Shown one piece after another: positions 37,191-45,745 of a stretch of DNA of 64,000 nucleotides. The notes beneath the pieces were generated by a model. That model did no database searches, had not been told where the DNA came from, and saw nothing but the letters and a program-made list of their open reading frames with translations. Every line of letters begins with the position of its first letter. Within the stretch, counting starts at the first letter, position 1. The position numbers and the translations under genes are program-made. Location of the stretch: positions 1-64,000 of the forward strand of contig DAOUPZ010000011.1 of NCBI GenBank assembly GCA_030625885.1, read 5' to 3'. Origin of the DNA: Clostridia bacterium. Lineage in GTDB: Bacteria > Bacillota > DAOUPZ01.

Positions 37191-37387
37191 AGAAAGAGGA
37201 ATAAATCCCTACTTTGTTCGTGCAAAGTCGATATCGTTTTGAGCTAACACTTTTACATGGGAGCCTGGACTCTGTTTGTGTCGTATAAGCCCTTTATGAG
37301 GGGACATACATAGCTGGCAGGAGGGCGCCAATCTGCTCGTTGAGCAGTTCAAAACGCTCGACCTACGGCAATAGTGGGGCTTTTTTT
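37191..37387 (+). ncRNA. ssrS: 6S RNA
   Basis: About 197 bases from a strong promoter to a T run. The ends pair (ATCCCTACT with AGTGGGGC), closing a long, bulged hairpin. Inner helices surround GGGAGCCTGGACTC and CGTTGAGCAG. The position between aspS and rarA is that of bsrA (6S-1 RNA) in B. subtilis. 6S RNA binds the sigma-A RNA polymerase holoenzyme by mimicking an open promoter and is released by short product-RNA synthesis. The exact ends are estimates. The assignment rests on synteny, size, promoter and fold; a covariance-model search would settle it. Confidence 0.82.
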
Positions 37388-38041
37388 AATTCATAATTCA
37401 CAATTATTAATTCATAATTAAAAGGGCTCAACACCAAACTCTGTTGTTGACAAGTCAGTTTTAATATAATCGAGCCTCATAGGGTTTTATTACGGCTATT
37501 TTATTGTCTATATGTACGATTTTAGATTCTGAATTCATGTCAACAACATGTTTTGCTGAAGAGCCATTAAAAGATTGAAGAAACTTTATATATGTAACGC
37601 AATAAAGAACTTACATTGCAATTTTGCACGAAAAGCGAAGGAAAGATGGGGACATTCCACGAGGCACGAGTGGTGTGTCCCCATGTTGCCAGAGCCATTG
37701 TAAATGTAAAAACTTTAATGTGATTTATAGGAGGATGCATTAAATATTTTTCATTGATTTTATTATCAGGGGAAAGTTGGAAGTAAAAGATTAAGGAATT
37801 ATATTATAGAATGTCTTACTATTCCTTTCATATATTTAATGCGCTTCATATAGGTTAATTGACAAGTATAAATAGGTATGATATCATCAATCTGTAATAA
37901 TTTCCGATAATATTGGTTGGGATTTACTGTTATTGCAGAATATAAAACCAGTATATTTTTTTAATTTGCTTTACGCAGTAAAGCTACAATAATTAATAAT
38001 TGTGAATTATGAATTGTGAATTGAAAAAGGGGGGGAAGTAT
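37388..38041. other. Repeat-rich intergenic region
   Basis: Contains ATTCATAATTCACAATT-type repeats at 37391-37425 and 37990-38025, a GGGGACA hairpin (37646-37684), and a GGAAAGTTGGAAGTAAAAGAT segment (37772-37794) like that at 31458. No ORF with a ribosome binding site was found. Confidence 0.6.
37646..37684. repeat. REP-like hairpin (GGGGACA ... TGTCCCC)
   Basis: ATGGGGACATTCCAC pairs with GTGGTGTGTCCCCAT around GAGGCACGA. The GGGGACA/TGTCCCC arms resemble REP-type elements that in some bacteria are mobilised by TnpA-REP (RAYT) transposases. The right arm has a partial relative at 45847-45866 (ACGAGTGGTGTGTCCTCAT). No such transposase is in the window. Confidence 0.6.
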
Positions 38042-38488
38042 ATGGAGCAATACGGAAAAGTCATTGAAGTAAAGGATCACTCAGCGCGGGTTGAATTTAT
38101 TCGCCATTCTGCTTGAGCGCATTGCGGCGCTTGTGGTATGGGACATACCCACGAAGATCAGATGATAGAAGTAGATGCGCGAAATTTAGTTAATGCAGAA
38201 TCAGGAGACAGGGTGAAACTGGAAATATCTGCAAGAAGTGTGCTTATGGCTTCATTTATTGTATACGTTGTGCCCTTGATTGGTTTGTTTTTAGGTTATT
38301 ATGTATTTAGCGGGATGGCCAAAATAATAGGCTACGCGGCGCGGGCTGATGCCATAGGGGGCGTTGCAGGGGTAACTATATTGGTACTTTCCTTTTTAAT
38401 TGCGCGGTGGTATGATCGTAAATTAACTAATGAGCAACGATTTCATTTAGAAATAACGAGAATAGTCGATCCAGCTGATATTTATTAA
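38042..38488 (+). CDS. RseC/MucC-family membrane protein with in-frame TGA, candidate selenoprotein
   Basis: 148 codons from ATG 38042, which follows GGGGGGAAG. The N-terminal 24 residues (MEQYGKVIEVKDHSARVEF to RHSA) are typical of RseC-like proteins, whose next residues are a Cys cluster. Here codon 25 is TGA (38114-38116), followed in frame by AHCGACGMGH, so TGA replaces the first Cys. Two membrane helices (about 65-90 and 97-118) follow. A hairpin suited to a bacterial SECIS lies 14 bases after the TGA. Reading the TGA as selenocysteine gives a UxxC motif and a full-length protein. RseC relatives act in redox-linked membrane signalling or SoxR reduction. The alternative is a nonsense mutation, leaving a 24-residue stub. 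Confidence 0.7.
38131..38154 (+). promoter_or_regulatory. Candidate SECIS-like hairpin after the TGA
   Basis: TTGTGGTAT (38131-38139), loop GGGAC, then ATACCCACGA with one bulged C gives about nine base pairs. The apical loop starts 23 bases after the TGA and begins with G, within the pattern described for bacterial SECIS elements. The bases also code for conserved residues, so the pairing could be coincidental. Confidence 0.45.
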
Positions 38489-38510
38489 GACGAGGCCTGC
38501 CTCGTCTTTT
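38487..38510 (+). terminator. Intrinsic terminator overlapping the RseC-family stop
   Basis: AAGACGAGGC and GCCTCGTCTT form a perfect 10-bp stem with a two-base loop, followed by TT. It begins within the stop codon. Confidence 0.8.
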
Positions 38511-41697: not shown

Positions 41698-42885
41698 ATG
41701 AAGCGGATTTATTTAGACCATAATGCCACAACACCATTAGATCCAGAAGCATTAAAAGTGATGATGCCGTATCTGACAGAAGAATTTGGCAATGCTTCTT
41801 CGATTTACGAAAAAGGACGGGTGACCAAAAAGGCAATTGCTGAAGCCCGTGAAAAAGTGGCGCGGTTGATTGGCGCGCAAAGTGATGAAGTGTTTTTTAC
41901 CGGCGGGGGAACGGAAGCGGATAACTGGGCGATTAAAGGCGCAGCAGAATCCTTGCGTGATAAAGGGAACCATATTATTACGACCGTTATTGAGCATCAT
42001 GCTGTTTTGCATACCTGTGAATATCTGAAGGAGCATGGATTTGAAGTGACCTATCTGCCGGTTGATGAATATGGGTTGGTAGATCCCGAAGCAGTCAAAC
42101 AAGCGATAACCGATCAGACCATTCTCGTTTCGGTGATGTATGCCAATAATGAGATTGGCACGATTGAGCCGGTGGCGGAAATCGGCAAAATTGTGAAAGA
42201 AAAAAACATTCTTTATCATATTGATGCGGTACAAGCTGTTGGTAAAATTCCGGTCGATGTGAATGCGATTGGTGTTGATTTATTATCCATGTCAGCCCAT
42301 AAATTATACGGACCCAAAGGAGTCGGCGCGCTATACATCCGCAAGGGAACCCAGATTAAGAATCTGATACATGGTGGGGCACAGGAGAGAATGCGCCGTG
42401 CTGGGACAGAAAATGTGGCGGGTATTGTAGGATTTGGAAAAGCCGCAGAATTAGCATTTGATCATTTATCAGAAACGGAAGAGCGGTTAACCCAATTGCG
42501 GGATAAGCTCCTTAACGGGATGATGGAAAAAATGGATCATGTGCGTCTTAATGGTCATCCGATTCATCGTTTACCGGGAAATGTGAATGTCAGTATTGAA
42601 TTCATTGAAGGTGAATCACTTTTGATTAGTTTGGATATGAAGGGGATTTCCGCTTCCAGTGGTTCTGCTTGTACATCGGGTTCATTAGATCCTTCTCACG
42701 TCCTTCTGGCAATCGGCTTGCCGCATGAAATTGCGCATGGCTCTTTAAGAGTCACACTGGGAAAAGAAAATACAGAAGCAGATGTGGATTATTTATTGGA
42801 CATATTGCCGGAGATTGTACAGAAATTACGTGCCATGTCACCGCTTTATGAAGCCTATTTAAAAGGAGAGGGTAATCGTGTATAG
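41698..42885 (+). CDS. iscS: Cysteine desulfurase IscS/NifS, copy 1
   Basis: 395 residues. A fold type I PLP enzyme with the family opening RIYLDHNATTPLD, HHAVLHT, the cofactor Lys202 in SAHKLYGPKG, and catalytic Cys325 in SSGSACTSGS. It takes sulfur from cysteine as a persulfide and hands it to scaffold or tRNA thiolation proteins. GGAGGAATTAAA precedes the ATG. nifU1 overlaps its end by 8 bases. It is about 80 percent identical by eye to copy 2 at 43397. In B. subtilis the equivalent gene (yrvO) supplies MnmA, which is encoded a little downstream here too. Confidence 0.96.
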   Translation: MKRIYLDHNATTPLDPEALKVMMPYLTEEFGNASSIYEKGRVTKKAIAEAREKVARLIGAQSDEVFFTGGGTEADNWAIKGAAESLRDKGNHIITTVIEHHAVLHTCEYLKEHGFEVTYLPVDEYGLVDPEAVKQAITDQTILVSVMYANNEIGTIEPVAEIGKIVKEKNILYHIDAVQAVGKIPVDVNAIGVDLLSMSAHKLYGPKGVGALYIRKGTQIKNLIHGGAQERMRRAGTENVAGIVGFGKAAELAFDHLSETEERLTQLRDKLLNGMMEKMDHVRLNGHPIHRLPGNVNVSIEFIEGESLLISLDMKGISASSGSACTSGSLDPSHVLLAIGLPHEIAHGSLRVTLGKENTEADVDYLLDILPEIVQKLRAMSPLYEAYLKGEGNRV

Positions 42886-43249
42886 TGAGAAAGTAATGGA
42901 TCATTTCAGTCATCCGCGTAATGTCGGGCAAATTGAAAACGCTGACGGGACAGGCCAGGTAGGGAATGCCAAATGCGGGGATATTATGAAAATTGATTTA
43001 AAAATAGAGGATGATCATATTGTCGATGTTAAATTTAAAACATTTGGTTGTGGCGCAGCGGTAGCGACAAGCAGCATGGTTACGGAAATGGTAAAAGGAA
43101 AAACGATCGAAGCAGCATTAGCAATTTCCAATAAAGCGGTCGCTGAAGCATTGGGTGGATTGCCGCCGCAAAAAATGCATTGTTCAAATTTAGCCGCTGA
43201 TGCATTACATGAAGCGATTAAGGATTATCAGAAAAAGCAGGCGCAATAA
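42878..43249 (+). CDS. nifU: IscU/NifU-type Fe-S scaffold, copy 1
   Basis: 123 residues from GTG 42878 with AAAGGAGAGGG upstream; the start overlaps iscS1 (GTGTATAG). It is the short IscU-like NifU N-terminal domain only. The three cluster-ligand Cys are visible: NAKCGD, TFGCGAA and KMHCSN. An Asp follows the first Cys as in IscU. It receives sulfur from IscS and builds [2Fe-2S] or [4Fe-4S] clusters. The last 90 bases are nearly identical to nifU2. A strong hairpin follows. Confidence 0.94.
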   Translation: MYSEKVMDHFSHPRNVGQIENADGTGQVGNAKCGDIMKIDLKIEDDHIVDVKFKTFGCGAAVATSSMVTEMVKGKTIEAALAISNKAVAEALGGLPPQKMHCSNLAADALHEAIKDYQKKQAQ

Positions 43250-43258
43250 GAAGATGAA

Positions 43259-43300
43259 ATAAAGAAAACTTTAGATTGTACAATCTAAGGTTTTCTTTAT
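43259..43300 (+). terminator. Terminator between the two iscS-nifU units
   Basis: ATAAAGAAAAC-TTAGATT pairs with AATCTAA-GTTTTCTTTAT around GTAC. This separates the two units transcriptionally. Confidence 0.88.
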
Positions 43301-43307
43301 TTATTGA

Positions 43308-43336
43308 TTGACATTTAGCGTAATTAATAGTATGTT
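43308..43336 (+). promoter_or_regulatory. Promoter of iscS2-nifU2-fdhD
   Basis: TTGACA (43308-43313), a 17-base spacer, then TATGTT (43331-43336). The ATTCC inverted repeat found at iscS1 is absent from the matching position. Confidence 0.66.
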
Positions 43337-43396
43337 AAGCCTATAAAAACACTCGGAAATGAAATTATTTACATATATCAATAGGGAGGAATCAAT

Positions 43397-44554
43397 ATGA
43401 AACGGATTTATTTAGATCATAATGCGACGACGTCATTAGATCCAGAGGTTTTAAAAGCGATGATGCCGTATCTGACAGGGGAATTTGGTAATGCTTCTTC
43501 AATTTATGAATGTGGGCGTATGGCCCAAAAGGCGGTTGTCGAAGCCCGTGAAAAAGTGGCGCGGTTGATTGGCGCGCAAAGTGATGAGCTGTTTTTTACC
43601 AGCGGGGGAACGGAAGCGGATAACTGGGCGCTTAAAGGCGCTGCAGAGGCTCTACGCGATAAGGGAAATCATATCATTACAACCGTTATTGAGCATCATG
43701 CTGTTTTGCATACCTGTGAATATTTGGAGGAACAGGGGTTTGAAGTAACCTACTTGCCGGTTGATGAATATGGCCTGGTAGATCCCGCAGCAGTAGAGCA
43801 AGCGATAACGGATCAGACCATTATTGTTTCCGTGATGTATGCTAATAATGAGATTGGCACGATTGAGCCTGTAGAGGAAATCGGCAAGATTGTCAAGGAG
43901 AAAGGTATCCTTTATCACATTGATGCGGTACAGGCTGTCGGGAAAATACCAGTCGATGTGAATGCGATCGGGGTTGATTTATTATCCATGTCAGCCCATA
44001 AATTATACGGACCCAAAGGGGTCGGGGCTTTATACATTCGTAAGGGAGTGAAAATTAATAACCTACTGCATGGTGGGGCCCAAGAGAGAAATCAGCGCGC
44101 CGGGACAGAAAACGTGGCCGGTATTGTGGGTTTTGGTAAAGCAGCGGAATTATCATGTGATAATTTGATAGAAACGGCGGAAAGATTAACCCGGTTGGGG
44201 GACAGGCTTGCTAAAGGGATTACGGAAAAAATGGATCATGTACGATTTAATGGCTATCCGCTTCATCGGCTGCCAGGTCATGTGAATGTCAGTATTGAAT
44301 TTGTGGAAGGGGAAGCGCTTGTAATGAGCCTGGATATGCAAGGAATTTCTGTTTCCAGTGGTTCAGCTTGTGCCGCCGGTTCAGCGGATCCTTCTCATGT
44401 ACTGCTGGCGATCGGTTTACCGCATGAGATTGCGCATGGTTCTCTGAGGATGACTTTGGGAAAAGATAGTACAGAAGCAGATGTGGATGAGGTACTGACT
44501 ATCTTACCCCGTATTGTGGAGAAATTACGGGCTATGTCACCACTTTATCAATAA
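43397..44554 (+). CDS. iscS: Cysteine desulfurase IscS/NifS, copy 2
   Basis: 385 residues, a close paralog of copy 1 with Lys202 and Cys325 in the same positions (SSGSACAAGS). It lacks about 10 residues of the C-terminal tail of copy 1. GGGAGGAATC precedes the ATG. It leads a unit with nifU2 and fdhD. In E. coli IscS passes sulfur to FdhD for formate dehydrogenase activation, so this copy may be devoted to formate dehydrogenase maturation. That specialisation is inferred from operon structure. Confidence 0.95.
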   Translation: MKRIYLDHNATTSLDPEVLKAMMPYLTGEFGNASSIYECGRMAQKAVVEAREKVARLIGAQSDELFFTSGGTEADNWALKGAAEALRDKGNHIITTVIEHHAVLHTCEYLEEQGFEVTYLPVDEYGLVDPAAVEQAITDQTIIVSVMYANNEIGTIEPVEEIGKIVKEKGILYHIDAVQAVGKIPVDVNAIGVDLLSMSAHKLYGPKGVGALYIRKGVKINNLLHGGAQERNQRAGTENVAGIVGFGKAAELSCDNLIETAERLTRLGDRLAKGITEKMDHVRFNGYPLHRLPGHVNVSIEFVEGEALVMSLDMQGISVSSGSACAAGSADPSHVLLAIGLPHEIAHGSLRMTLGKDSTEADVDEVLTILPRIVEKLRAMSPLYQ

Positions 44555-44577
44555 AATCAAGAAGGAGTTGTATAACT

Positions 44578-44949
44578 ATGTATGAAGATAAAGTAATGGA
44601 TTATTTTAACAATCCACGCAATGTGGGTGATATTGAAAATGCGGATGGAACAGGGAGAATAGGCGATGCGGGTTGTGGAGATATTATAAAGATTGATATA
44701 AAAGTTGCGGATCGTCATATCGTTGATGTTAAATTTAAGGCATTTGGTTGTTGTGCGGCCATCGCTACAAGCAGTATGGCTACAGAAATGGCAAAAGGGA
44801 AAACCATTAAAGAAGGGTTGGCAATTTCCAATGAAGCGGTAGCGAAAGCACTGGGGGGATTGCCGCCGCAAAAAATGCATTGTTCTAATTTAGCGGCTGA
44901 TGCATTACATGAAGCGATTAAGGATTATCAGAAAAAGCAGGCGCAATAA
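44578..44949 (+). CDS. nifU: IscU/NifU-type Fe-S scaffold, copy 2
   Basis: 123 residues. Ligand Cys are in DAGCGD, AFGCCAA and KMHCSN; the extra Cys in FGCC is not in copy 1. AAGGAGTTG lies upstream of ATG 44578. It sits 23 bases after iscS2 and 4 bases before fdhD. The 3' end matches nifU1 at all but two or three of about 95 bases, more than the rest of the gene, which suggests gene conversion. Confidence 0.94.
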   Translation: MYEDKVMDYFNNPRNVGDIENADGTGRIGDAGCGDIIKIDIKVADRHIVDVKFKAFGCCAAIATSSMATEMAKGKTIKEGLAISNEAVAKALGGLPPQKMHCSNLAADALHEAIKDYQKKQAQ

Positions 44950-44953
44950 GGAG

Positions 44954-45745
44954 ATGAGATTGGTGGATGTCACCCGTACCATTAATATTGAAAAAATAGC
45001 AGGAAAGATGAGAGGCGTTGAGGCGGATGTTGTCATTGCCGAATATCCGTTTACGATTCATATCAATGACAAAGAATTGGTTACGTTATTATGTTCACCC
45101 ACTCATTTAGAGTATCTTGCTTTAGGATTTTTGCAATCCGAAGGTTTTATTCAGGATGATTCATCGATTAAAAATATTGAATTTGATGAGGAAAAAGGGT
45201 ATATCAATGTCCATATTTATAATGGAGAACGTATTCTTAACGAAAAAGCATTTGGGAAGCGAACGCTGACCACGGGATGTGGCAAAGGGACTACGTTCCA
45301 TGATGTGGCGCAAAGTTTGGCATCTGATCCCATTCATTCTAAAATGATGATCTCTACTGAGAAAGTATTCGAGTTTGTGAATCAATTGCATGAAAGCGCA
45401 CAAATTTTTCGGAAAACAGGAGGGGCTCATATCTCGACACTTGCTTCTGAACAAGAGATGATGTTTGTTCATGAAGATATCGGACGGCATAACGCACTGG
45501 ATAAACTGTTTGGGGAATGTATTATGAAAGATGTTGGTTTTGAAGATAAAATCATTATTACCAGTGGACGCATATCCTCAGAGATGCTCATTAAGAGTGC
45601 AAAAAGGAAAATACCCATTCTGATTTCGCGCAGTGCGGCTACCCAATTATCTGTAGAATTAGCGGAAAAAGCAGGGATTACCTTAATTGGATTTGTCAGA
45701 AATGACAAAATGAATATCTATACTAATGGGTGGAGAATTGTATAA
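44954..45745 (+). CDS. fdhD: Formate dehydrogenase accessory sulfurtransferase FdhD
   Basis: 263 residues if begun at ATG 44954; TTG 44960 or GTG 44963 fit the AAGGAG site (44948-44953) better. Family motifs are present: LLCSPTHLEYLALGFLQSEG, TTGCGKGTTF with the sulfur-carrying Cys, RKTGGAHISTL, HEDIGRHNALDKL and TSGRISSEM. FdhD moves persulfide sulfur from IscS to the bis-MGD molybdenum or tungsten cofactor of formate dehydrogenase. The enzyme itself is outside the window. Cotranscription with iscS2 fits this relay. Confidence 0.93.
   Translation: MRLVDVTRTINIEKIAGKMRGVEADVVIAEYPFTIHINDKELVTLLCSPTHLEYLALGFLQSEGFIQDDSSIKNIEFDEEKGYINVHIYNGERILNEKAFGKRTLTTGCGKGTTFHDVAQSLASDPIHSKMMISTEKVFEFVNQLHESAQIFRKTGGAHISTLASEQEMMFVHEDIGRHNALDKLFGECIMKDVGFEDKIIITSGRISSEMLIKSAKRKIPILISRSAATQLSVELAEKAGITLIGFVRNDKMNIYTNGWRIV

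Follow-up and report, generated by a model that had tools for sequence, protein, structure and literature searches.

Is the TGA codon inside the rseC gene of this Clostridia bacterium a stop, or is it read as selenocysteine (Sec)? RseC, a small membrane protein about which little is understood, is linked to the Rnf respiratory complex and to SoxR reduction; it is often labelled a transcriptional regulator, although an Fe-S cluster has recently been reported for it. In the 64,000-nucleotide stretch of DNA that was analysed (the window), translation from the ATG at 38042 to the TAA at 38486-38488 yields a single rseC frame, with the TGA at 38114-38116 as its sole interruption and RHSA-TGA-AHCGACGMGHTH as the sequence around codon 25. 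In a profile search, the product with the TGA counted as a residue matched PF04246 (RseC_MucC) at 109.1 bits (cut-off 24.4), the alignment covering residues 7-140 and profile positions 1-130 of 130 and spanning the TGA on both sides. These data bear out the continuous RseC-family frame across RHSA-TGA that an earlier note on this DNA had described; as for the strong ribosome binding site also claimed there, a run of seven G does precede the ATG and is plausible, but it falls short of a textbook site. The protein has two hydrophobic stretches, and C28 and C31 are present, the TGA replacing the first of three conserved N-terminal Cys. rseC is the only PF04246 match found by profile search in the 3.1 Mb genome, so that no Cys paralog could serve as a fallback.

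Gene callers that terminate at TGA would report at rseC merely a truncated ORF of 116 residues, which begins at the internal ATG 38138. Its existence is what a recent nonsense mutation would need if the gene still made a product, namely this short protein; otherwise, rseC would be a young pseudogene. However, a ribosome binding site is not evident before 38138, rseC carries neither a frameshift nor a further stop, the other conserved positions are all intact, C28 and C31 included, and the gene retains its promoter-like site and its terminator (Table 1). The promoter-like site is the best of the region, as judged by consensus match only. Since the terminator directly follows the stop codon, rseC is probably transcribed alone. 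Downstream lies an AAA ATPase ORF, which by inspection we take to be RarA-like.

Table 1. Positions of rseC, its signals and other features of the window
Feature	Positions	Strand	Basis or remark
6S RNA gene, upstream neighbour of rseC	37203-37384	+	Rfam RF00013, 81.7 bits (gathering 46.4)
Promoter-like site of rseC, TTGACA-17-TATCAT, extended -10 TG	37859-37887	+	11/12 consensus matches
G-run ribosome binding site, seven G, 6 nt before ATG	38029-38035	+	sequence
rseC, 148 codons + TAA, in-frame TGA as codon 25	38042-38488	+	translation, PF04246
TGA codon, predicted selenocysteine U25 of U25-x2-C28-x2-C31	38114-38116	+	Cys in 71/71 aligned homologs
Predicted bacterial SECIS hairpin UUGUGGUAUGGGACAUACCCACGA, loop GGGAC 38140-38144	38131-38154	+	within published bSECIS constraints
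Intrinsic terminator directly after rseC stop	38487-38508	+	9-pair stem, then T-rich tail
fdhD	44900-45745		named from sequence alone

Several other features of the window were recorded. The 6S RNA gene sits downstream of aspS. A tandem duplication at 41698-44949 comprises a gene pair for a cysteine desulfurase (IscS/NifS-like) and a NifU-like scaffold, the copies being close and non-identical, and fdhD comes after these duplicated pairs. Pieces of a group II intron (RF02001 and RF01998) lie at the window start, at 91-384.

We then compared codon 25 with its counterparts in other genomes. Among 399 genomes of the phylum searched, 169 were RseC-positive, and positions 25, 28 and 31 are Cys in all of the 71 homologs that we extracted from this phylum, the best of which is 40% identical to the window RseC. 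Their codon 25 is TGT in 46 cases and TGC in 25, so that UxxCxxC in the window protein is paired with CxxCxxC in the homologs. The Cys cluster that the earlier note had expected at this site is therefore invariant. Of the combination that it took as telling against Sec, Cys in all close relatives together with a decayed frame, the first part was found (71/71) and the second was not, the frame being intact. Among the matches listed from the 169 RseC-positive genomes, a stop inside the gene occurs in the window gene only and no second TGA-bearing RseC was seen; the Sec reading thus rests on one genome. The genus, order and class of the window genome are each represented in the search set by that single genome; the class of genome G027 is likewise a single genome, and the order of G055 consists of five genomes already in the sample. 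A wider contig search returned one distant Cys-type homolog, and neither RseC homologs in viral contigs nor a solved structure of an RseC homolog was found.

These same data give a sequencing or assembly error its footing: the TGA is known from one assembly, it lies one base away from TGC or TGT, and all 71 homologs have Cys, so that the true codon could be either of these and RseC an ordinary Cys protein. By contrast, the rseC frame is otherwise undamaged, and an error that creates a stop would place a TGA at an invariant Cys in only about 3 of 62 cases. This explanation must also accommodate a genome with complete Sec machinery.

Indeed, selA, selB, selC and selD, which the earlier note had proposed to look for and among which it held a lack of selB and selC to be fatal, are all present. 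The tRNA-Sec gene (selC) scored 68.1 bits (gathering 47) on contig C15 and was also called by ARAGORN as tRNA-SeC with anticodon tca; it lies less than 0.4 kb from selB (385.9 bits, cut-off 242) on the same contig. Contig C20 carries selA (631.8 bits), selD (396.6 bits) and, beside them, fdhA, a 901-residue formate dehydrogenase ORF. Both selD and fdhA contain a TGA in frame where Sec is known in their families: selD has one, and fdhA reads VDHCARL-U-HSATVAG across its own. The inference of an anaerobe that uses formate dehydrogenase, which had been drawn from fdhD in the window, holds: fdhD is there, and fdhA has its Sec codon. Taken together, the four sel genes and the TGA-bearing fdhA and selD indicate that the organism very probably decodes Sec.

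The arrangement of these genes deserves description. The sel genes are split, selC and selB on one contig and selA and selD on another. At the first locus (L049, 12135-14814), selC and selB are followed by a thioredoxin gene; at the second (L055, 8950-13566), NuoE-like, NuoF-like and Sec-containing FdhA genes adjoin selA and selD and precede a formate/nitrite-transporter-like gene, which points to a probable formate dehydrogenase complex linked to NAD or ferredoxin. In the ORF at L055 8950, whose GTG start was assigned mechanically, a further TGA stands two codons in. We discounted it as a stop ahead of the gene proper, which begins further downstream, and it has no hairpin after it.

The presence of SelB and tRNA-Sec also bears on two other readings of UGA, namely a reassignment of the codon to a different amino acid and low-level readthrough by a near-cognate tRNA. 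TGA is the least used stop, as might be expected in such a case, but it still terminates 5 of the 40 large ORFs of the window, and the two further internal TGAs that were found fall on the Sec positions established for SelD and FdhA. We regard reassignment or readthrough as very improbable.

A Sec codon should be followed by a SECIS element, and the hairpin downstream of the rseC TGA lies exactly where the earlier note had placed it, at 38131-38154, its stem beginning 14 nt past the TGA and its GGGAC loop 23 nt from it; in an alternative reading, the loop is GGA at 24 nt. The stem has 9-10 bp with one bulge. Folded alone, the hairpin reaches -8.1 kcal/mol (z = -1.97), whereas folding the whole stretch of 60-81 nt downstream of the TGA gave nothing notable (z about -1.3), the apical hairpin being the only informative part. 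The published bSECIS model asks for a loop of 3-9 nt with a G in its first two positions, a stem of 4-16 bp, a distance of 16-37 nt from the UGA and an MFE <= -7.5; a stricter form takes the majority loop, N1-G-[G/U]-N-N2 (PMC13188914). The rseC hairpin falls within this model and resembles those of fdhA (loop GGUCU, 18 nt from the TGA, -9.0 kcal/mol) and selD (loop AGUUU, 32 nt, -8.2 kcal/mol), all three having an N1-G-[G/U]-N-N2 loop within 16-37 nt of the TGA.

How often would such a hairpin occur by chance? Under the loose model, an equally good hairpin follows 2.6% of ordinary Cys codons (n = 379) and 90 of 4,628 TGA triplets (1.9%) of the same genome, and it is found at the same site in 3 of the 71 Cys homologs. 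With the strict loop, the counts fall to 0/379, 5/4,628 and 1/71, respectively; this loop was chosen as a test after RseC, FdhA and SelD had been seen to fit it, so the loose-model rates are the more independent of the two. Of the 4,628 triplets, 51 lie inside open frames (at least 20 codons before the TGA and 60 after), and a SECIS-like hairpin follows only those of RseC and FdhA, SelD not being among the passing cases because it has too few upstream codons and an energy on the threshold. When rseC was redrawn with synonymous codons, 24% of the redraws under the loose model and 8.7% with the strict loop reached the observed hairpin energy. The hairpin is thus explained in part by the choice of residues and provides moderate, not conclusive, evidence for Sec.

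The position of the stop and the hairpin can be considered jointly. Sixty-two single substitutions would create a stop in rseC, 3 of which give a TGA at an invariant Cys; multiplied by the hairpin rate of about 2%, a random stop would resemble the rseC case roughly once in 1000, a rough likelihood in which neither mutation bias nor the residue-driven share of the hairpin is taken into account. Likewise, a SECIS-like hairpin would come after an erroneous stop in only about 2% of cases, and we consider a sequencing or assembly error improbable. A nonsense mutation, too, would have to have produced a TGA at an invariant Cys that happens to precede such a hairpin. In its favor, RseC usually goes with Rnf and RnfC was undetected in this genome, so that RseC could be dispensable here; weighed against the intact gene described above, this origin appears improbable to the same degree. 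We conclude that rseC in all likelihood specifies a full-length membrane protein of the RseC family, with Sec inserted at the UGA of codon 25. The earlier proposal to that effect is supported, in one genome, by the Sec machinery, the Cys pairing in 71/71 homologs and the SECIS-like hairpin.

According to this Sec reading, SelB and tRNA-Sec would decode the UGA at codon 25 under the direction of the hairpin that starts 14 nt after it, and Sec would take the place of the first of three invariant Cys (UxxCxxC) in the N-terminal domain. In Escherichia coli RseC, this domain is cytoplasmic and precedes two transmembrane helices, and when isolated, it carries three conserved Cys and a reconstituted oxygen-sensitive [4Fe-4S] cluster; SoxR reduction requires at least two of the three Cys, while single Cys-to-Ser changes leave function (PMC11729352). 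By homology, the UxxCxxC domain may hold such a cluster on the cytoplasmic side of the membrane, before two transmembrane helices. U25 would then most likely provide the cluster with a selenolate ligand or form the reactive half of a UxxC selenenylsulfide, thereby tuning electron transfer or redox sensing. Given the oxygen-sensitive [4Fe-4S] cluster on the three conserved Cys of E. coli RseC, the residue that Sec replaces is most likely a ligand of the cluster or a redox ligand, although we put this chemical role forward less firmly than Sec insertion itself. The tolerance of E. coli RseC to single Cys-to-Ser changes implies that Sec need not be essential.

Whether this protein works with Rnf is a separate question. 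Clostridium ljungdahlii requires rseC both to grow autotrophically and to express rnf (PMC9124969). Within the phylum sample, RnfC was found in 160 of the 169 RseC-positive genomes and in 37 of the 230 RseC-negative ones (odds ratio about 93, uncorrected for relatedness), and rseC adjoins rnfC in several genomes, e.g. in G029 (contig C11, 58706-59083 and 59153-60442). In the window genome (G000), no RnfC was detected at E <= 1e-50, with 4 of 36 candidates scored; given this scoring and a genome that is 98% complete, its absence is likely, not proven. RseC therefore appears to be an orphan in this genome, an exception to the RseC-Rnf association, and the part that U25 would play in redox sensing or electron transfer may not depend on Rnf. 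The fuller reading, that Sec naturally serves as a ligand to an oxygen-sensitive [4Fe-4S] cluster while RseC, kept without Rnf, has an Rnf-independent role of this kind, is a tentative idea that we think rather unlikely.

No RseC/PF04246 entry occurs among the 119 prokaryotic selenoprotein families and subfamilies tabulated in a 2026 review, nor does one appear in the deep-Sep paper, in which some new families were accepted without TGA-bearing homologs. We found no relevant paper in the open-licence literature that links RseC with selenoproteins or selenocysteine; apparent hits in selenium-chemistry papers are the chemical notation RSeC, not the gene. The window RseC is thus very probably a selenoprotein family outside the published catalogue, in other words a known family in a Sec version, produced by established Sec machinery. 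If true, it would add one family to the known prokaryotic selenoproteome, and the natural exchange of Cys for Sec at an invariant ligand would argue that the RseC motif is redox-active and not structural.

How does this RseC compare with known systems? Like RseC, SelD and FdhA of the same genome have an in-frame TGA followed by the same type of hairpin; unlike RseC, both are long-established Sec families. The likeness to GrdB, to which a selenoprotein review ascribes a UxxCxxC motif, and to other UxxC/UxxCxxC selenoproteins is confined to the motif, their folds and functions being unrelated to RseC. With E. coli RseC, the window protein shares PF04246, a three-residue N-terminal motif and two hydrophobic stretches, but the motif is CX2CX5C in E. 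coli and UX2CX2C here. Moreover, the equivalog model for SoxR-reducing RseC (NF008115) gave 47.2 bits against a cut-off of 184, indicating that the window RseC is not of the E. coli orthologue type. C. ljungdahlii RseC is likewise a PF04246 protein of an anaerobe, and its gene is transcribed separately from its neighbours (PMC9124969). It differs in its setting: rseC lies directly upstream of rnfC in C. ljungdahlii, whereas the window rseC has a 6S RNA gene on one side and an AAA ATPase gene on the other.
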